Position numbers and translations under genes: made by a program
Notes under the pieces: model-generated
Told to the model about the DNA's origin: nothing
What the model saw: only the letters and a program-made list of their open reading frames with translations
Database searches by the model: none
In this document: positions 16,591 through 27,061 of the stretch, piece by piece
Numbering within the stretch: the stretch's first letter is position 1
Layout: each line of letters starts with the position of its first letter
Source: an uncultured Desulfobacteraceae bacterium
GTDB lineage: Bacteria > Desulfobacterota > Desulfobacteria > Desulfobacterales > UBA5852
Length of the DNA stretch: 64,000 bases
Assembly: GCA_913060875.1 (NCBI GenBank)
Contig: CAJXSL010000004.1
Location: 124,001-188,000 of the forward strand
Direction: 5' to 3'

Positions 16591-18411
16591 ATGCTTAAAT
16601 CCGATAACCCCGAACGCTTCAAATTTTTCCCATCGCCCTGGATCGTCGTCGCTACGGCATCCATTCTGCTGCTGGTGGTCGTGGCCCTGGCCGTGCGCAA
16701 TATCAACCGTGAAGCCCAGCACATGTCCCGCATTTTGAATGAAAAGGGCGCGGCGTTGATCAAGGCCTTCGAGGCCGGCGCCCGAACCGGCATGATGGGC
16801 ATGATGTGGGGGGGGAACCAGGTCCAGCGCCTGCTGGAGGAGACGGCGCGACAGCCGGATATCGTATACCTGATGGTCGTTGACCGCGACGGCCGAATCC
16901 TGGCCCACAATGACCGTGCCAAAATCGGGCGCGTGCTGGCCGATCTCCCGGCAGCAGGAGAGGGAGAACGCTGGCGCCTTACAAAACAGGCAAACGGCCC
17001 GCAGACCTTTGAGGTCTACCGCCTGTTCAAGCCCCTGCAGGGTGCTGGGCGGGGGAACCGCCGCGGCATGGGGGGACGTCACCAGGACCGGTTCTGCCCC
17101 CCCGGCATGTCCGGGCAGGGAAACACGGACTGGTGCTTCCCCGGCGATCCTGCAAATAGTGACCAGATCATCCTGGCCGGCTTTGACATGGCGCCCTTCG
17201 AAGACGCCCGCCGGGAGGATATCCGCAACACGATCACCATTTCGGGGGTATTGGTACTGCTGGGGGTTGCGGGATTCATCTCCATCTTCTGGGCGCATCA
17301 CTACCGTAGCGCCGCGCGATCGCTGCAGGATGCCAGTGCCTTTGCCCGGGAAGTGGTCACCAGCCTGCCGGTGGGACTGATTGCCACCGACCACCAGGGA
17401 AAAATCGCCTTTTTCAATGCTGCGGCGGCGAACATCACCGGCATCGGGTTCGACCAGGCGCGGGGCCGCCGTCCGGAAGACGTACTGCCGGCCCACTGGA
17501 GCCATCTGCAGGATGCCCTGACCCGGGGCCAAAAAATCATCGAGCAGGAGATGGAATGCCCCTTTGCGCCCGACCGGACCGTCCCTGTGAGTGTCAGCGC
17601 CAGCTGCATCGTCAATGAAGACGGACATTTCGTTGGCCACGTCATCATCCTGCGCGATCTGGCTGAAATCAGGCAACTGCAGGCGACCCTGCGGCGCACG
17701 GAGAAAATGGCCGCCCTGGGAGGACTGGCCGCCGGTGTGGCCCACGAAATCCGCAACCCCCTGAGCTCCATTAAAGGCATGGCCACTTATTTCGGCAACA
17801 AGTTTCCGGAAGGCAGCGAAGACCGGGAAGCCGCCCGGGTGATGACCGGTGAGGTCGACCGGCTGAACCGCGCCATCAGCGCGCTGCTGGATTTCGCTCG
17901 TCCATCCGAACTGAACCGGCGGCCGACCGATATCCCGCAACTGCTGTCCCATTGCCTGAAACTGATCGCCCCGGATGCGGCGGCTAAAAGCATTGTTGTC
18001 CGGCAGGACATCGACCTCCCCCCCGACTACCGGCCGCTTATGGATAGTGATCGTTTTTCCCAGTGCATCCTGAACCTTTATCTCAACGCCATCCAGGCTA
18101 TGCCGGCGGGGGGGCGGATCATCATCCGAGCGCGAGTTGACGAAGACGCCGCCCTTCATCTGGATATCCGTGACACCGGGCCGGGCATTGCAGACGAAAT
18201 GCAGTCCCAGATCTTCGATCCCTATTTCACCACCAAACCCAAGGGAACGGGGCTCGGTCTGGCCATCGTCCACAAGATCGTCGAAGCGCACGGCGGGCGT
18301 ATTGATGTGCAGAGCCGGCAAGGCGAGGGCGCGCGCTTCCATATTACCCTGCCCCCCTTGCCGGCCGCCAACGCCATCCCCACCAACAGCGAGGTTACCC
18401 GTGCCGAATAA
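16591..18411 (+). CDS. zraS: Sensor histidine kinase, ZraS/HydH-like
   Basis: 606 residues. TM1 at about 16-36 (WIVVATASILLLVVVALAV), a periplasmic sensor region of about 175 residues with two cysteines in FCPPGMSGQGNTDWCFPG and the AGFDMAPFEDARREDIRNT element typical of ZraS, TM2 at about 212-232, a PAS domain (VVTSLPVGLIATDHQGKIAFF), the phospho-acceptor H-box GVAHEIRNPLSSIKGM, and an ATPase domain with the N-box (LNLYLNAIQAM), DTGPGIADEM and GTGLGLAIVHK. The start at 16591 has GGGA at good spacing; the earlier Met at 16558 does not. Its last 11 bases overlap the regulator gene. The stimulus is probably metal or envelope stress, by analogy with ZraS. Confidence 0.9.
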   Translation: MLKSDNPERFKFFPSPWIVVATASILLLVVVALAVRNINREAQHMSRILNEKGAALIKAFEAGARTGMMGMMWGGNQVQRLLEETARQPDIVYLMVVDRDGRILAHNDRAKIGRVLADLPAAGEGERWRLTKQANGPQTFEVYRLFKPLQGAGRGNRRGMGGRHQDRFCPPGMSGQGNTDWCFPGDPANSDQIILAGFDMAPFEDARREDIRNTITISGVLVLLGVAGFISIFWAHHYRSAARSLQDASAFAREVVTSLPVGLIATDHQGKIAFFNAAAANITGIGFDQARGRRPEDVLPAHWSHLQDALTRGQKIIEQEMECPFAPDRTVPVSVSASCIVNEDGHFVGHVIILRDLAEIRQLQATLRRTEKMAALGGLAAGVAHEIRNPLSSIKGMATYFGNKFPEGSEDREAARVMTGEVDRLNRAISALLDFARPSELNRRPTDIPQLLSHCLKLIAPDAAAKSIVVRQDIDLPPDYRPLMDSDRFSQCILNLYLNAIQAMPAGGRIIIRARVDEDAALHLDIRDTGPGIADEMQSQIFDPYFTTKPKGTGLGLAIVHKIVEAHGGRIDVQSRQGEGARFHITLPPLPAANAIPTNSEVTRAE

Positions 18412-19783
18412 AACCCACCTACTGGTCGTCGATGACGACATCGGCCACCTGACGACCCTGAAAACCCTTGTTCGCAGCTGGGGCTATCGTGTGACCGTGG
18501 CGGAAGACGGATCGGCTGCGGTCGATGAAGTCAAGACCCAGCCCTTCGACCTGATTCTCATGGATGTCCGCATGACACAGATGGACGGGATCGCGGCGCT
18601 CAAGCGGATTAAGGCCCACAATCCCGCCATCCCCGTCCTGATCATGACGGCATATTCATCCGTTCAGACAGCGGTGGACGCCCTGAAAACCGGGGCCTAT
18701 GATTATCTCACCAAACCCCTGGATTTCGACACGCTTCGTCTTACCGTTGAGCGGGCCATGGAGCACACCCGGCTGAAAAATGAAAACCGCCGGCTCAAGC
18801 AAAAACTTCGGGAGGAATTCGACTGGCAGAACATCATCGGCAGCAGCCCGCCCATGCGCGCCCTTATCGATATGGTGGCCATGGTGGCGCCGTCCGAAGC
18901 AACGGTTCTGATTACCGGTGAAAGCGGGACCGGGAAAGAACTGATTGCCCGCTCCATTCACTTCAACAGCCCCCGCCGATCCAAACCGTTTGTGGTGGTC
19001 AACTGCGCAGCCCTGGCGGACACCCTCCTGGAATCCGAGCTTTTCGGCCACGAAAAAGGCGCTTTTACCGGAGCGGACAAACGCCGGGAGGGGCGTTTCC
19101 GCCAGGCCGATGGGGGCACCTTGTTTCTCGACGAAATCGGCGAGACGTCACCCGCCATGCAGGCCAAACTTCTGCGTGTGATCCAGGAGCGCGAATTGCA
19201 GCGGGTCGGCGGCGACGAAACCCTGCACGTCGATGTGCGCATCCTGGCCGCCACCAACCGGGATCTGTCCGGGGAAGTCAAGCAGGGAAAATTTCGGGAA
19301 GACCTTTTCTACCGGTTGAACGTCGTGACCGTGGACATGCCGCCCCTCAGGGCCCGCCACGCGGATATCCCGTTGCTGGCCCAGCATTTCATGAAACAAT
19401 TTGCTTCACGCAACCGGAAAGAGATCAAGGGCTTCACCCCTCGGGCCATGGACCTTTTGATCAGGCACGACTGGCCGGGCAATGTACGCGAACTGGAGAA
19501 TGCCGTCGAACGGGCCGTGATCCTGATCACCGGCGACTATATCACTGAACGCGAACTGCCGTTGAGCATATCGCCCGACCGCGACAGCGCTTCGTCCGAA
19601 CCAGCGGTGACCGGAGATAGGATGCTCGCCCTGGATGGCATGCAGTCGCTGGAGTCCATCGAAAAAAAAGCGATTAAGGCCACGCTTGCGGAAACCGGCG
19701 GCAACAAGAGTGAAACCGCCCGCCGGTTGGGAATCAACCGCAAAACGCTGCATCTCAAACTGAAGCGCTATGGGCTGGCCTGA
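18401..19783 (+). CDS. zraR: Sigma-54-dependent response regulator, ZraR-like
   Basis: 460 residues starting at a GTG (GAGG six bases upstream) that overlaps the kinase stop. Receiver domain 1-120 with Asp in LILMDVRMTQMDG and Lys in DYLTKPLDFD; AAA+ domain 135-370 with Walker A GESGTGKE, the sigma-54-contacting loop [12 protein letters not shown], Walker B GGTLFLDEIGE and the arginine-finger region; C-terminal Fis-type helix-turn-helix GGNKSETARRLGINRKTLHLKLK. It should activate -24/-12 promoters when phosphorylated by the adjacent kinase; the GGGTAAAAATGCCCC boxes at 16483, 16526, 20581 and 20623 are its likely sites, and the zraP-like gene at 19920 has a sigma-54 promoter. Confidence 0.93.
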   Translation: MPNKTHLLVVDDDIGHLTTLKTLVRSWGYRVTVAEDGSAAVDEVKTQPFDLILMDVRMTQMDGIAALKRIKAHNPAIPVLIMTAYSSVQTAVDALKTGAYDYLTKPLDFDTLRLTVERAMEHTRLKNENRRLKQKLREEFDWQNIIGSSPPMRALIDMVAMVAPSEATVLITGESGTGKELIARSIHFNSPRRSKPFVVVNCAALADTLLESELFGHEKGAFTGADKRREGRFRQADGGTLFLDEIGETSPAMQAKLLRVIQERELQRVGGDETLHVDVRILAATNRDLSGEVKQGKFREDLFYRLNVVTVDMPPLRARHADIPLLAQHFMKQFASRNRKEIKGFTPRAMDLLIRHDWPGNVRELENAVERAVILITGDYITERELPLSISPDRDSASSEPAVTGDRMLALDGMQSLESIEKKAIKATLAETGGNKSETARRLGINRKTLHLKLKRYGLA

Positions 19784-20747: not shown

Positions 20748-20777
20748 TTGACACTGGACTGGCGATTGTGCCATATT
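20748..20777 (+). promoter_or_regulatory. Sigma-70 promoter of the metF operon
   Basis: A perfect TTGACA (20748-20753) and CATATT (20772-20777, four of six) with 18-base spacing, about 110 bases before metF. Confidence 0.45.
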
Positions 20778-20889: not shown

Positions 20890-21810
20890 ATGAGCGAAAG
20901 CAATCTTGCCAAAATTCTCAAAGCAGGGCACTTCGCCTTTACCGGCGAACTGGGGCCCCCGCGAGGCGCAAATGTCGAACATGTCCGCGAGAAAGCCGCT
21001 CCACTCAAAGGAATGGTGGATTCGGTCAATATCACCGACAACCAGACCGCAATGGTGCGCATGTCCAGTTGGGCCGCCGCGCTGATTGCCATCCAGGAGG
21101 GCCTGGAGCCCAACTACCAGATGGTCTGCCGTGACCGGAACCGCCTGGCCATGCAGGCCGACATCCTCGGCGCCTATGCCCACGGCATCCGCAACATGCT
21201 CTGCCTTTCCGGCGACCACCAGCAATTCGGCGATCATCCGAATGCCAAGGGCGTGTATGACATCGATTCGATTCAGTTGATCGGTATGACCAAACGCATG
21301 CGCGACGAAGGGCTTTTCCTGAGCGGCGCCAAGATGGACGGGTCCCCCCAGATGTTCATCGGCGCGGCCGCCAACCCCTTTGCAGAGCCCTTCGAATGGC
21401 GCGTCCACCGCCTGGCCAAGAAGATCGAAGCCGGGGCGGATTTCATCCAGACCCAGTGCATCTATAATATGGACAAAATGCGCGAGTGGGTACGGCAGGC
21501 CAACGACATGGGGCTGACTGAAAAAACCTATATCCTGGCCGGCGTAACCCCCATGAAGAGCCTCGGTATGGCCCGCTACATGAAGAGCAAGGTGCCGGGT
21601 ATGGATGTACCCGATGAGGTCATCAAACGGCTTCAGGGCGTCGACAAGAAAAAACAAGCCGACGAAGGCATCAAGATGGCCTGCGAACAGATCGAAGAAT
21701 TCAAGGAAATGAAAGGCGTGGCCGGTATCCACCTCATGGCCATCGAATGGGAGCACAAGGTTCCGGAAATTGCGGAACGGGCCGGTGTCCTCCCCCGGCC
21801 GGAGGTATAA
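20890..21810 (+). CDS. metF: Methylenetetrahydrofolate reductase, MetF
   Basis: 306 residues, a complete flavoprotein TIM barrel. The catalytic glutamate region is FTGELGPPRG at about residue 18, followed by DSVNITDNQTAMVRMS, the folate/FAD strands MVCRDRNRLAMQADILGAY and GIRNMLCLSGDHQ, and the substrate-pocket Gln/Tyr region ADFIQTQCIYNMDKM. It interconverts 5,10-methylene- and 5-methyl-tetrahydrofolate in the methyl branch of the Wood-Ljungdahl pathway. The start at 20890 has GAGGA eight bases upstream. It is first in an operon ending in metV, with three membrane/redox genes in between, which suggests the electron donor or acceptor is not NAD(P)H but the membrane complex; that is inference. 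Confidence 0.95.
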   Translation: MSESNLAKILKAGHFAFTGELGPPRGANVEHVREKAAPLKGMVDSVNITDNQTAMVRMSSWAAALIAIQEGLEPNYQMVCRDRNRLAMQADILGAYAHGIRNMLCLSGDHQQFGDHPNAKGVYDIDSIQLIGMTKRMRDEGLFLSGAKMDGSPQMFIGAAANPFAEPFEWRVHRLAKKIEAGADFIQTQCIYNMDKMREWVRQANDMGLTEKTYILAGVTPMKSLGMARYMKSKVPGMDVPDEVIKRLQGVDKKKQADEGIKMACEQIEEFKEMKGVAGIHLMAIEWEHKVPEIAERAGVLPRPEV

Positions 21811-21899
21811 CCGACAGCGCACCGCACCGGCGCCCGGTGCGCCACAGTGTGCGCACTTCATTGCCCGTTCTTGAGGGCGGAATGTTTGGGGAGATGTCC

Positions 21900-22577
21900 A
21901 TGTACGATTTTATCAGGGGTCCACTGGTGTGGATCGCTTTCCTGGTTTTCATCCTCGGCACCATTTACCAGGTGGTCCGATTCTATCGCTTGAGCCGACC
22001 CAAAGAACGCTACCAGGTGCGCGTACCGTTCGGCAAACCGCCCAAAGAACCTGACGAGTCGCCCGCCGAGCCTGAGCTTACCTGGTGGCAGTGCGTGAAG
22101 TTGAGCGTAGTGGGCGTCAACCCGGTGATGGTCTCCGTTACAACGGTGTTCCACCTGGCCCTGGTGCTGACGCCGCTTTTCGTTCTGGGGCACAACGTCC
22201 TGCTGGACCTGGCCTGGCACGCGAGTCTGCCCAGCCTGCCGGAAGCGGTGGCCGATGGTCTCACTATGATTGTCATTGCCGGCGGAATTTTCTTCCTGCT
22301 GCGCCGGATCTTTGTGGACCGCGTGCGCGCCATCTCAACGGCCTATGATTATGTGGTGCTGCTCATTGCAACGGCGCCATTTATCACCGGGTTTCTGGCC
22401 TACCATCATCTTTTCGATTATGACACGGTCATCCTCCTGCATATGCTGGCCGGCGAAATCATGTTGATGGCCGTACCGTTCACCAAACTGGTCCACATGC
22501 CCTATTTTTTCATCAACCGGTTCGTGCTGGTACACGAAAACACTCTGGGTACCGGCGGAAGCCGTATCTGGCGCTAA
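21900..22577 (+). CDS. NarI/TmcC-like membrane subunit
   Basis: 225 residues with five or six hydrophobic segments (about 9-27, 75-100, 120-140, 155-170, 175-195). Histidines within the membrane parts (TTVFHLALVLTPLFVLGH, AYHHLF, LLHMLAGEIM, KLVHM) are candidates for two b-type hemes, as in NarI, DsrM and TmcC. Such subunits pass electrons between the quinone pool or periplasmic cytochromes and cytoplasmic Fe-S proteins. The ATG at 21900 has GGGGAG six bases upstream; in-frame ATGs at 21882 and 21894 are alternatives. It follows metF by 89 bases and precedes an Fe-S protein and a tetraheme cytochrome, reproducing much of a Tmc/Qmo-type complex between metF and metV. Confidence 0.82.
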   Translation: MYDFIRGPLVWIAFLVFILGTIYQVVRFYRLSRPKERYQVRVPFGKPPKEPDESPAEPELTWWQCVKLSVVGVNPVMVSVTTVFHLALVLTPLFVLGHNVLLDLAWHASLPSLPEAVADGLTMIVIAGGIFFLLRRIFVDRVRAISTAYDYVVLLIATAPFITGFLAYHHLFDYDTVILLHMLAGEIMLMAVPFTKLVHMPYFFINRFVLVHENTLGTGGSRIWR

Positions 22578-22602
22578 GCGCCGCCATCCAGCGGAGACAG
22601 GA

Positions 22603-23001
22603 ATGAGCTCGAACAGTCAAGCGCCCATCAATCATGAAGAAGTCCGGCAAATGCTGGATCACCATCAGGACAAAATGAAAACGGCCCTGCGGGTCTGTGC
22701 CCATTGCAGCCTGTGCGCCGACAGCTGTTTTCTGTATCACGTCCATGACAAAGATCCCCGTTACATGCCGTCCCACAAGGTCATCAATTCTCTGGGGAAA
22801 CTCTATAAGAAAAAGGGCAAGATCGACCGGGCCGGTTTCGAGGAAATCAGCGAAATCGTCTGGCGACGATGCGTTCTGTGCACCCGATGCTATTGCCCCC
22901 TGGGCATCGACATCCCGGAAATGATCGCCTTTGCCCGCAGCATCTGCCGCTCCCAGGATGTATACTTCCAGTGGAGCGACCTTGAGCAGCCGGCCGAGTA
23001 G
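22603..23001 (+). CDS. Small cytoplasmic Fe-S protein, HdrC-like
   Basis: 132 residues without a membrane segment. It carries CAHCSLCADSC at about residue 32, a regular C-x2-C-x2-C-x3-C [4Fe-4S] motif, and CVLCTRCYCP at about residue 88, where the last cysteine is two residues closer than the usual C-x2-C-x2-C-x3-CP. The following PLGIDIPEMI is typical of HdrC/GlpC-type proteins. The shortened motif suggests an altered or missing second cluster. GGAG lies six bases before the start. Between a NarI-like subunit and a periplasmic cytochrome it is the natural cytoplasmic electron link to MetF/MetV; that link is inferred from gene order. Confidence 0.85.
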   Translation: MSSNSQAPINHEEVRQMLDHHQDKMKTALRVCAHCSLCADSCFLYHVHDKDPRYMPSHKVINSLGKLYKKKGKIDRAGFEEISEIVWRRCVLCTRCYCPLGIDIPEMIAFARSICRSQDVYFQWSDLEQPAE

Positions 23002-23064
23002 GCACCTGTTGCCCCCCGGCTCCGGAACGCCATTGAAGTTGATCAGAAAGGTACTGCGACGGAA

Positions 23065-23478
23065 ATGATTTCAAACAAACGACCCATGGTATTGGCAACG
23101 GCCATTTGTCTGGCCTTTATCGGATTAGGCCTGTCAACCATCTCTTTCGCCCAGGACGAAGAAATGCGCCTGAACACGGGCGAAGACATCACGGTTCAGC
23201 GGACAGCGGTCCCATTTTCCCACGATTTGCACATGGGGCTCTATGAATGCCTGGATTGCCATCACGACTACAAGGACGGCGCCAACGTCCTGGACGAGGA
23301 TACGCTCGAAGAAGGCAACCCCGATGTCCGCTGCGCCACCTGCCATAATGACCAGGCCGACCTGGATCGACAAAAAGCGTATCACCGCCAGTGCATGGGG
23401 TGTCATATCGATACACGCAAAGCCGGCGAAGCTTCCGGCCCTGAAATGTGCGGGGCCTGCCATTTACCGGAAGATTGA
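23065..23478 (+). CDS. Periplasmic tetraheme cytochrome c (class III/TmcA-like)
   Basis: 137 residues with signal peptide (VLATAICLAFIGLGLSTISFA, cleavage before QDE) and four CxxCH heme sites: CLDCH, CATCH, CMGCH and CGACH. Upstream histidines FSHDLH, HHDY and YHRQ are candidates for the distal ligands, as in cytochromes c3. The acidic composition and the position next to a NarI-like subunit recall TmcA of the Tmc complex of sulfate reducers. It would exchange electrons with periplasmic hydrogenases or formate dehydrogenases. The ribosome site is weak. It lies 63 bases behind the Fe-S protein and 37 bases before metV. Confidence 0.92.
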   Translation: MISNKRPMVLATAICLAFIGLGLSTISFAQDEEMRLNTGEDITVQRTAVPFSHDLHMGLYECLDCHHDYKDGANVLDEDTLEEGNPDVRCATCHNDQADLDRQKAYHRQCMGCHIDTRKAGEASGPEMCGACHLPED

Positions 23479-23515
23479 GCGAACATTCGTAATTCATCCA
23501 CCTTGGAGGTCGCAA

Positions 23516-24190
23516 GTGGTTAAAGCCAAGAGAAAACCCCTGGAAGAAATCAAGCAGGCGATTCAAGACTATACCCGCGTTCTGAACATCGGCTGCGGCG
23601 GCTGTGTATCCGTCTGCCTGGCCGGCGGCCAAAAAGAAGTCAATCTCCTGAATGCCAAACTGAACCTCGTGTTGAAAAATGACAACAAGGCCACCCGCGT
23701 AGACGGATTCACCGTCGAGCGCCAGTGCAACGAAGCCTTTCTGGTGGCGTTGGATGCCCGCGTGGCGCGCTACGACTGCCTCATGTCCATGGCCTGTGGC
23801 GCGGGCGTGCAGCTTCTGGCCGAACGCTACCCGGACAAACCGGTCTTCCCGGCGGTCAATACCATCGCCATCGGGGTCGATCGTGAAATCGGGGTTTCCG
23901 AAGAACGCTGCCGGGCCTGCGGCGAGTGTGTTCTGGGCTACACGGCCGGCATCTGCCCCATCACACGCTGCGCCAAGGGTCTATTCAACGGCCCCTGCGG
24001 CGGCACCAACAACGGCAATTGCGAAGTCAGCAACGATATCCCCTGTGCCTGGCAGGATATCTACAACCGTCTGAAAGCCCAAAACCGTTTGGACGACATC
24101 AAAAAAATCAAGCCGGCCATGCAATGGCAGAACCAGACCCGCCGGATGATCGTTCAGGACGAATACGCCGCCCGCTACAAGGACAAATAG
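23516..24190 (+). CDS. metV: MetV, zinc/Fe-S partner of methylene-THF reductase
   Basis: 224 residues starting at GTG (TTGGAGGT six bases upstream). The N-terminal part has NIGCGGCVSVCLAGGQKEV and CLMSMACGAGVQLLAERYP; the C-terminal part has the MTHFR-C signature CRACGECVLGYTAGICPITRC followed by GLFNGPCGGTNNGNCEV. MetV binds zinc and Fe-S and forms the MetFV core of acetogens, where it passes electrons to the MetF flavin. Here metF and metV are separated by three electron-transfer genes rather than adjacent or joined to hdrABC. A bidirectional terminator follows. Confidence 0.92.
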   Translation: MVKAKRKPLEEIKQAIQDYTRVLNIGCGGCVSVCLAGGQKEVNLLNAKLNLVLKNDNKATRVDGFTVERQCNEAFLVALDARVARYDCLMSMACGAGVQLLAERYPDKPVFPAVNTIAIGVDREIGVSEERCRACGECVLGYTAGICPITRCAKGLFNGPCGGTNNGNCEVSNDIPCAWQDIYNRLKAQNRLDDIKKIKPAMQWQNQTRRMIVQDEYAARYKDK

Positions 24191-24226: not shown

Positions 24227-24260
24227 AAAGCCCCCGCCCTTTGACAGGCCGGGGGCTTTT
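24227..24260. terminator. Bidirectional terminator between metV and fdhA
   Basis: AAAGCCCCCG (24227-24236) pairs with CGGGGGCTTT (24250-24259), with T/A runs on both sides, between the convergent metV and formate dehydrogenase genes. Confidence 0.85.
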
Positions 24261-24292: not shown

Positions 24293-27061
24293 TCAGGATC
24301 CGGGCATCAGCTTCACCGCACACACCTTGTATTCGGGAATGCCGGATACGGGATCCAGGGCCGCATTGGTCAGCTTGTTGGCGGCCCCCTGGGCATAATG
24401 GAAGGGGATGAAAACCGTTCCGGTGACGGCCTTGCGGGACACCTTCACCTGGGCATCGATCTGTCCCCGGCGGGATGCAATGCTGATGCGATCGCCATCG
24501 GCCACACCATAGGTGGCCGCATCCTGGGGCGAAATTTCCACGAAGCTTTCCGGCGCCCGCTCCATCAGGTCCTTCGACCGCATGGTCATTGTGCCGGTAT
24601 GGTAGTGGTACAGGATACGCCCGGTGGTGAGGTACAGCGGGTAGTCCTGGTCCGTCACCTCGGCCGGCGGCTGCCACTCGATGGCGTGGAACAGCCCCTT
24701 GCCCCGGGTAAACTGGGCGCTGTGCAGGACGGGCGTTCCGGGGTGCTCCTCGTTCAGGCAGGGCCAATGCAACCCCTCCCGGTCGATGCGCTGGTAGGTA
24801 ATCCCGGCGTAGCTCGGCGTCACCTGGCGGATTTCCTCGAAAATGGCCTCGCTGTCGGCATAGTCCATGGGATACCCCAGGCGGTCGGACAGTTCGGTCA
24901 AGATTTTCCAGTCGTCCCAGGCCTCCCCCGGGGCCTCCACGGCCCTGCGAACCCGCTGGACACGCCGCTCGGTATTGGAGAAGGTGCCGTCCTTTTCGGC
25001 AAAACACCGGCTGGGCAGCACCACGTCGGCCATGCGGGCGGTTTCGGTCATGAAAAGGTCCTGGACCACCATCAGCTCGAGGTGTCCCAGGCAGTCTTCG
25101 GCATGGTTGAGATCCGGATCGGACACCAACGGGTTTTCCCCGATGACGTAGAGGGCTTTCAAACGCCCGTCATGGGCGGCCGGGATCATCTCGGTGGCTT
25201 TCATGCCGATGCTGGTGGACAATCCGTCCAGGCCCCAGGCCGCTCCCATTTTACGGCTGGCATCCTCGTTGTTCACCGGCTGGTAGGCCGTAAAGACGTT
25301 GGGCAGCCCCCCCATGTCGCAAGCGCCCTGGACGTTGTTCTGGCCCCGCAGGGGATTCACCCCGCCGCCCGGCATGCCGAGATTGCCGCAGAGCATGGAT
25401 AGGTTGGCCAGGGATTTGACATTGTCCGTACCGCAGGTGTGCTGGGTGATCCCCATGCAGTAAAGGATGCTGCCCACACCGGCCTGGGCATAGAGTCGGG
25501 CCGCTTCCACGAGTTGCTGGGCCGGGATGCCCGAAATTTCCTCCACATATTCCGGCGTATATTTGGCCACCATGGCCTTCAGCTCTTCGAAGCCCTCGGT
25601 GCGCTCGGCCACAAAGGCTTTGTCATGCAGGTCTTCCGCGATGATGACGTGCATCATCCCGTTGATCCAGGCCACATCCGTACCGAGATTGGGACGGAGG
25701 TAGTGATCGGCGAATTCCTTGATCTTGATGCGGCGGGGGTCCACCACGATGAGACGGGTCCGGCCGGAGGACACCGCCCGTTTGACGCCGGCGGAAATGA
25801 CCGGATGGTTCTCCGTTGTATTGGAGCCGGTGATGAGGATGACATCGGCTTTCTCGACACAGGCGATGGTATTCGTCATTGCCCCGCTACCGAATGCTGC
25901 GGCCAGACCGGCCACGGTGGAGCTATGTCAGAGACGGGCGCAATGGTCCACGTTGTTGGTCTTGAGCACCGCCCGGGCAAACTTCTGGGCCACGTAGTTT
26001 TCTTCGTTGCTGATACGGGCGGATGTCAGCACCCCGATGCTGTCCGGCCCGTGGGCTTCTTTGATGGCGGTCAGCTTGCCGGCAATGAAATCCAGGGCTT
26101 CATTCCACTCGACTTCCTGGAATTCGCCCTCCTTCTTAACAAGGGGCCGGGTCAACCGGTCCGGTGCGCCAACGAAATTGTAGCCGAAGCGCCCCTTGAC
26201 GCACAGGCTGCCATAGTTGGGCGCGACATCTTCCACCCCGGTCACTTTGACCACGCGATTGTCCCGGACGTGCAAATGAATCTGGCAGCCGACACCGCAG
26301 TAAGTGCAGGTGGTCCGCACACGCTCGGTTTCCCAGGGTCTGACCGCGTAGCGAACATTCTTTTCCACCAATGCGCCCACCGGGCAAACCTGGACACACT
26401 CGCCGCAGAAGACGCAGTCGGAATCCTTCAGCGGCTTGTCGCCGGCGGCAATGATTTTGGTTTCCGATCCCCGGAATCCGAAACTGATAGCCTTGTTGAC
26501 CTGGACCTCGTTGCAGGCCTGCACGCAGCGGCCGCATAAAATACAGCGGGAAAAATCCCGCACGATAAACGGGTTAACATCCTCCAGGGGATAGTTGACC
26601 ACCGTGCCGGGCAGACCCTCGCCGGTCACCTGGTAGCGGTAGGCCAGGTCCTGGAGCTGGCAATCCCCCCAGACCGGGCAGAGTTGATCGCTGCGGTCGT
26701 CTTCGGCCACGCCCAGCTGGAAGGCGGTCCAGTCCTGTTCGTCCGATCCCCGGGCGGCGCAATTGTGGTTCCCCGAAGCCAGGAGAAGCTTGATGATGGT
26801 TCGGCGGGCTTCCACCACTTTGGGCGATTCCGTCTGGATCACCATATTCTTGCCCGCCGGTGTGGCGCAGGCCGGCAACAGCGTCCGGGCCCCTTCCACT
26901 TCCACCACGCAGACACGGCAGGCGCCGGTGGGGGTCGTGCCTTTCAGATGGCACAAGGTGGGAATGTCGATGCTGTTGCGCCGGGCCACGTCGAGAATCG
27001 TTTCGCCCGGTTCAAAGGTGAATTCGTTCCCGTTCATCACCAACAGGTTCTGATCTGCCAT
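24293..27061 (-). CDS. fdhA: Selenocysteine formate dehydrogenase, NuoG/FdhA-type catalytic subunit
   Basis: 922 residues when the in-frame TGA at 25930-25928 is read as selenocysteine (Sec378, context CARL-U-HSSTVAGLAAAFG). Order: N-terminal [2Fe-2S] domain with C37, C48, C51 and C65; a His/Cys [4Fe-4S] segment (HNCAARG ... CPVWGDC); two ferredoxin clusters CILCGRCVQAC (about 174) and CVFCGECVQVC (about 218); the molybdopterin-enzyme cluster CTYCGVGC at about 253; then the bis-MGD domains (GSNTTENHP, YCMGITQHTCGTDNV, GGVNPLRGQNNVQGACDMG). It reduces CO2 or oxidises formate in the cytoplasm with Mo or W. The start has GGGGAAAACC upstream. No diaphorase subunit (FdhB/NuoF) is adjacent. With convergent metF-metV it suggests the methyl branch of CO2 fixation or acetate oxidation. 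Confidence 0.95.
25892..25930 (-). promoter_or_regulatory. SECIS element for selenocysteine insertion
   Basis: In the mRNA the UGA is followed after exactly 18 bases by GGUCU in the loop of a GGCC/GGCC stem (GGCCGGUCUGGCC), the same loop sequence and distance as in E. coli fdhF as I recall it. This decides that the UGA is a Sec codon, not a stop. Confidence 0.9.

Follow-up and report, generated by a model that had tools for sequence, protein, structure and literature searches.

MetFV encoded with a reduced Tmc/Hmc-like membrane module in sulfate-reducing bacteria: a putative membrane-bound methylene-tetrahydrofolate reductase

The coupling of methylene-tetrahydrofolate (methylene-THF) reductase to membrane energy has been an open question for decades. 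According to a review of the field, the enzyme has always been recovered mostly in the soluble fraction, and genomes have given no evidence of a membrane localisation (PMC8578096); the model proposed for Sporomusa leaves part of the membrane link open (PMC9430772). Besides the MetF-only type, the published MetFV enzymes are the 2S (ferredoxin), 3S (RnfC2), 6S (HdrABC-MvhD) and X (NuoEFG) types (PMC8515935). What, then, is to be made of a locus in which metF and metV enclose a membrane cytochrome? Such a locus lies at positions 20890-24190 (+ strand) of the stretch analysed here, the window, which comprises 64,000 nt of contig CAJXSL010000004.1 (positions 124,001-188,000) from an uncultured Desulfobacteraceae bacterium (UBA5852; assembly GCA_913060875.1). 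It is likely, judging from comparative sequence analysis, that its five genes encode a single methyl-THF/methylene-THF oxidoreductase spanning the cytoplasmic membrane, in which MetFV takes the place of a CCG head.

Translation and domain scans bear out the gene order first read from the sequence, a NarI-like, an HdrC-like and a tetraheme cytochrome gene enclosed by metF and metV, all co-directional and separated by gaps of about 25-90 nt. The first gene, metF (20890-21810; 306 amino acids, aa), encodes the catalytic flavin subunit of methylenetetrahydrofolate reductase (PF02219, 135.7 bits for a cut-off of 24, E 2.7e-39), and the last, metV (23516-24190; 224 aa, GTG start), the Fe-S (zinc) subunit of MetFV (PF12225, 125.5 bits for a cut-off of 23, E 6.5e-37). 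Between them stand a tmcC/hmcE-like gene for a NarI-type membrane cytochrome b with five transmembrane helices (21900-22577; 225 aa; PF02665), a gene for a small dicluster Fer4 protein predicted to carry two [4Fe-4S] clusters (22603-23001; 132 aa), and one for a periplasmic tetraheme cytochrome of the TmcA/class III type, with a signal peptide and four CxxCH motifs (23065-23478; 137 aa; PF02085). The second of these, labelled HdrC-like at first reading, has a more exact name in NCBIfam, the N-terminal part of HmcF/TmcB, without the CCG part.

How widespread is this gene set? Three samples were used, each with one genome per species: 40 relatives, 291 genomes of the order (a MetV survey, with 60 neighbourhoods fetched) and 247 genomes of the phylum; many of the carriers are metagenome-assembled genomes. 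Among the relatives, 4 of the 5 members of the window's genus have the five genes together, as does the sister genus; more distant families have them too, frequently arranged as cyt-metV-tmcC-feS-metF. Two classes of MetV appear in the order survey: tmcC and the small Fe-S gene adjoin metV at 49 of the 60 loci (two cut by contig ends), and the other eleven hold metV-metF without tmcC. Together with the relatives this gives 56 carriers in 22 families of the order, to which the phylum survey adds 17 in 7 other families, for a total of 73 genomes and 29 families. Wherever present on the contig, tmcC and the Fe-S gene share the strand of metV (all 73 loci), and a multiheme cytochrome gene is found within 6 kb on that strand at 67 of them. 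The exact order of the window is not peculiar to this genome, a possibility that the original prediction had raised against itself: it occurs in 17 of the 73, seven within the order (G000, G002-G006, G047) and ten outside it (L188-L197). Chance co-location is rejected, since the set is conserved in 73 genomes and in several gene orders. Named carriers include Desulfoluna limicola ASN36, Desulfoluna butyratoxydans MSL71 and Desulfosarcina widdelii PP31, as well as Desulfotignum, a metagenome-assembled genome of Desulforapulum autotrophicum, and Desulfohalobiaceae. At two loci (L211 in G420, L213 in G392) an open reading frame (ORF) resembling, by eye, a REP-associated transposase lies between the Fe-S gene and metV.

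What do the three middle genes amount to? Their nearest curated names are TmcC (187 bits, cut-off 240; HmcE, 174 bits), the N-terminal part of HmcF/TmcB (89 bits to the TmcB profile, cut-off 735, over positions 25-134 of 430 only) and TmcA (76 bits, cut-off 114), all three below the equivalog cut-offs. In complete MetV-linked loci the Fe-S ORF is about 120-148 aa long, but beside TmcC or HmcE without MetV it reaches about 421-446 aa; the short exceptions are partial loci or loci at contig ends. About 130 aa are kept, and the part that is missing is the half of HmcF/TmcB bearing the CCG signature; this half, needed for the usual cytoplasmic partner, is absent exactly where MetV is present. The second Fe-S motif also differs, CxxCxxCxCP in the module versus CxxCxxCxxxCP in HmcF/TmcB. 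Because the Fe-S subunit lacks the CCG half, the module was rejected as a canonical Tmc paralogue, and the window metFV cluster contains no TmcD gene. Elsewhere, the window genome has a complete Hmc operon with a full-length HmcF and a separate Tmc locus (L103) with a WD40-type TmcD candidate. Comparative genomics thus strongly supports the reading of the middle genes as a stripped Tmc/Hmc complex, much as the original prediction had taken them to be Tmc-like. Two supposed small Fe-S proteins without MetV (L134, L136) were rejected, their ORFs being 431-438 aa long. In one genome (L069, G104) TmcC and the Fe-S protein are fused in a 365-aa ORF. At L205-L207 (family f82), a TmcC-like gene is followed by an Fe-S ORF of about 262 aa (N-terminus 43-46% identical) with no co-directional metV, and this intermediate length may reflect another head swap.

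The cofactor ligands are kept throughout. Four histidines of TmcC (H85, H98, H181 and H199) are invariant in 54/54 sequences, eight cysteines of the Fe-S protein in 53/53 (including those of the shortened second motif), the four CxxCH motifs and four further, distal histidines of the tetraheme cytochrome in 52/52, and 14 cysteines of MetV in 53/53, where an FNGPCGG motif is also conserved. Five long helices are seen in an AlphaFold2 model of TmcC (predicted local distance difference test score, pLDDT, 85). In the PDB it most resembles NarI chains (VIA Z 12.7, root-mean-square deviation 3.7 over 163 residues); EtfD (Z 8.3) comes next, then the cytochrome b of hydrogenase 1. The model fits a NarI-type fold, which with the four histidines would suit two b hemes. 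A structure search with the Fe-S protein returned no useful PDB match, and a sequence search found no solved structure of MetV.

Did the association arise once? In the TmcC tree all MetV-linked proteins fall into one clade, with a support of 99 in the Shimodaira-Hasegawa-like approximate likelihood ratio test (SH-aLRT), rising to 100 after extra lineages were added, with two changes counted for the MetV-linked label in the enlarged tree. Only L094 does not fit; it is the TmcC of the window itself, taken from a short locus cut before metV. The MetV-linked TmcC clade has a single origin. The TmcC-linked MetV sequences also lie on one side of a branch in their tree, with low support, and the MetF sequences mix. 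Moreover, several carriers encode elsewhere a MetF 85-89% identical to that of the window, MetV staying with tmcC; by this pattern MetV would act as the adaptor, and MetF as a shared, exchangeable catalytic part. At four loci (L193, L194, L197, L198), the module is followed directly by a single ORF of 513-545 aa, in which a distant MetF (25-29% identity) is joined to a MetV C-terminal domain (37-43%).

Does the module belong to the acetyl-CoA pathway? The window genome has an operon for carbon monoxide dehydrogenase/acetyl-CoA synthase (CODH/ACS) elsewhere. Taking ACS as present where the match is strong (E below 1e-30), it is found in 49 of 56 carriers within the order and 14 of 17 outside; this makes 63 of 73 carriers overall versus 2 of 12 genomes of the order without MetV. 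In G006 (96% complete), where ACS is present, MetV and full-length MetF are each encoded once, and both belong to the module. In one lineage (G360, G470 and others) the module lies within the CODH/ACS operon, and HmcA-HmcB-HmcC, including an NrfD-type subunit, replace the tetraheme gene. A single co-directional run in G360 reads folD, cdhD, cooS, acsB, cdhE, acsE, tmcC, feS, metV, metF, HmcA (16 hemes), HmcB and HmcC, and G470 and others match it as far as their contigs go. Judged by gene order, MetFV stands there where the CCG half of HmcF would be. At L208, HmcA, HmcB and HmcC are found in part, and HmcF is still only the N-terminal part. QrcD was not found above cut-off in the genomes of the HmcA-HmcB-HmcC lineage and occurs in each of the 15 same-order carriers tested, a contrast that tracks taxonomy and is only suggestive.

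How might such an enzyme work? The flavin of MetF would carry out the chemistry on methyl-THF and methylene-THF, and the clusters of MetV would pass the electrons on to the small Fe-S protein, docked on the cytoplasmic face of TmcC. Through two b hemes, TmcC would then deliver them to the periplasmic cytochrome and onwards to Qrc, or else to menaquinone within the membrane, making the enzyme a membrane-bound methyl-THF:cytochrome c (or quinone) oxidoreductase. In evolutionary terms, a Tmc/Hmc-like complex would have exchanged its CCG head, of the DsrC/disulfide type, for MetFV, and MetV would serve as adaptor. The midpoint potentials are -200 mV for methylene/methyl-THF, about -200 mV for cytochrome c3 and -74 mV for menaquinone (PMC8578096). 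Electron transfer from methyl-THF would be nearly isoenergetic and reversible towards the cytochrome, and downhill towards menaquinone; with a couple so close to cytochrome c3 and more negative than menaquinone, acetyl-CoA oxidation could bypass the uphill step to NAD+. During CO2 fixation, a redox loop could form, in which periplasmic oxidation of H2 or formate powers the reduction of methylene-THF. Qrc is itself electrogenic, and QrcD has a close relative in HmcC (PMC6303296). The coupling of MetFV to the membrane genes, as originally predicted, is strongly supported by comparative genomics, with the set kept in 73 genomes and the CCG half missing with MetV; the physical complex, the electron path with its choice of cytochrome or quinone, the direction and the conservation of energy are what we infer from these genes.

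Several observations weigh against this membrane-bound oxidoreductase. The MetV clade has low support (42), and the second motif of the Fe-S protein is shortened (CxxCxxCxC), the cluster there being only predicted. Four MetV-TmcC-FeS loci (L059, L068, L073, L081) have no nearby multiheme gene. Two further MetFV copies, with HdrA-type partners, are encoded in the window genome, so the module is not its only methylene-THF reductase. No full-length ACS match was found in 7 of the 56 and 3 of the 17 carriers, some at 90-99% estimated completeness; those without a strong match include G204, G156, G250, G226 and G235 (family f35), G452 (99% completeness) and G453. In such genomes the module may act outside the acetyl-CoA pathway. 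Because 10 of 73 carriers have no full-length ACS match, the link to this pathway, as read from gene content, is strong and not universal, and together with the four loci lacking a nearby cytochrome gene these carriers indicate that other roles or partners exist.

Where would the electrons go? A somewhat unlikely answer is that the main task of TmcC, as of EtfD or NarI, is to exchange electrons with menaquinone; MetFV would oxidise methyl-THF, the electrons would reach the quinone pool in the membrane, and the tetraheme protein would serve as an accessory or a second exit. The closest folds, the quinol-oxidising NarI and EtfD, are in its favour, as are the four loci just mentioned and the presence of HmcC, from the quinone-interacting NrfD/QrcD family, in the lineage without Qrc (PMC6303296). 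However, the set keeps its multiheme gene at 67 of 73 loci, and the tetraheme proteins retain all heme ligands; in addition, Qrc, which hands electrons from periplasmic cytochromes to menaquinone, occurs in all 15 tested same-order carriers, so that a cytochrome exit is workable.

The direction of flow raises a second alternative, which we regard as somewhat unlikely: a mainly reductive module, in which electrons from periplasmic H2 or formate oxidation pass through the cytochrome and TmcC to methylene-THF, forming an energy-conserving redox loop in autotrophic growth. Sequence cannot tell direction, and complete oxidisers would need the same enzyme to run the opposite way, although the drop from H2 to methylene-THF is about 214 mV and membranes of Sporomusa ovata do catalyse H2-dependent methylene-THF reduction (PMC9430772). 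Distinctly unlikely is a different C1 task, such as oxidising methyl groups from demethylation or balancing folate C1 units, outside the acetyl-CoA pathway; the carriers without a full-length ACS match (notably family f35 and G452 at 99% completeness) and the two other MetFV copies of the window genome would suit it, but 63 of 73 carriers have ACS, one lineage encodes the module within its CODH/ACS operon, and G006, with a sole MetFV, has ACS as well. Mere co-regulation of metFV with a Tmc-like complex serving another cytoplasmic partner is highly improbable, for even though the complex is a predicted one and metF is unlinked in many carriers, MetV keeps with TmcC-FeS in 73 genomes of varied gene order, the Fe-S subunit of MetV-linked loci has no CCG half, the MetV-linked TmcC clade has a single origin, and modules are placed within CODH/ACS operons.

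How does the proposed oxidoreductase compare with known systems? A module of cytochrome b and cytochrome c is in none of the published MetFV types (PMC8515935), and no description of MetFV with Tmc or Hmc parts was found in the literature searched, which excluded most subscription papers. The 6S Hdr-type MetFV-HdrABC-MvhD of Moorella thermoacetica and Sporomusa ovata likewise has a MetF and MetV core with its electron module encoded alongside, and a membrane link has been proposed for S. ovata, where it is assigned to MvhD and no integral membrane subunit has been identified (PMC9430772). The electron module here, by contrast, consists of a periplasmic multiheme cytochrome and a small Fe-S protein together with a di-heme b subunit predicted to be integral to the membrane; the HdrA flavin subunit, HdrB, HdrC and MvhD are absent from the window metFV cluster, whereas HdrA occurs at both other MetFV loci of the genome and MvhD at one (L101). 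The X-type of Dethiosulfatarculus, described as widespread in Desulfobacterales (PMC8515935), shares the MetFV core and an overlapping host range, but has an NAD-linked NuoEFG module upstream of metFV that the window cluster lacks. For the sulfate-reducing partners of anaerobic methanotrophic archaea (ANME), metF has been noted with HdrABC, and Tmc separately (PMC10553843).

Like the Tmc complex (TmcABCD), the module has a TmcA-like tetraheme cytochrome, a TmcC-like cytochrome b and a TmcB-like ferredoxin domain; it differs in keeping only this N-terminal part of TmcB, in having no TmcD, in the addition of MetFV and in scores below the equivalog cut-offs. TmcC and the Fe-S protein also match HmcE and HmcF of the Hmc complex (HmcABCDEF), and one lineage has HmcA, HmcB and HmcC beside MetFV; yet HmcF is without its CCG part, with MetFV in that position, and the window has a tetraheme cytochrome instead of HmcA, no HmcA, HmcB or HmcC being present in its cluster. 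The mycobacterial EtfD connects a flavoprotein with menaquinone and has Fe-S and CCG domains as well. It shares the NarI-type membrane part (PDB 9ojn; second best fold match, Z 8.3), whereas the module has separate polypeptides, MetFV in place of the electron-transferring flavoprotein, an extra periplasmic cytochrome and no CCG domain.

Around the window cluster, a promoter-like site upstream of metF (20748-20777, + strand; TTGACA-18-CATATT, with TG before the second hexamer) has 10/12 matches, and is weak evidence, as 3 such sites were found for 2.4 expected by chance. Upstream of metF lie genes for a regulator and for a periplasmic protein of the metal-resistance type; several modules have sigma-54 or response-regulator genes beside them (18137-19783 in the window; downstream of metF at L066 and L113). 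A hairpin with a T-run 3' of metV (about 24227-24260, + strand; AAAGCCCCCG...CGGGGGCTTTT), read by eye and with a shorter part also in the motif listing, is likely a terminator common to metV and the convergent fdhA. The latter (24293-27061, - strand) encodes a formate dehydrogenase alpha subunit; an in-frame TGA interrupts it within the motif ARL-U-HSSTVA, and its product is probably a selenoprotein.

What does this mean for sulfate reducers? Their MetFV is probably, as far as the gene sets tell, wired into the membrane electron transport chain. The chances are evenly balanced that this widespread, previously unclassified MetFV type is a true respiratory complex, through which the methyl branch would trade electrons directly with the quinone pool and with cytochromes of the periplasm, and so join energy conservation. 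Since cultured sulfate reducers with complete genome sequences, Desulfoluna limicola and Desulfosarcina widdelii among them, carry the defined gene set with its integral membrane cytochrome, the question of the membrane link becomes directly testable. Beyond this enzyme, the module points to a modular rule, by which the Tmc/Hmc electron conduit can exchange its cytoplasmic head.

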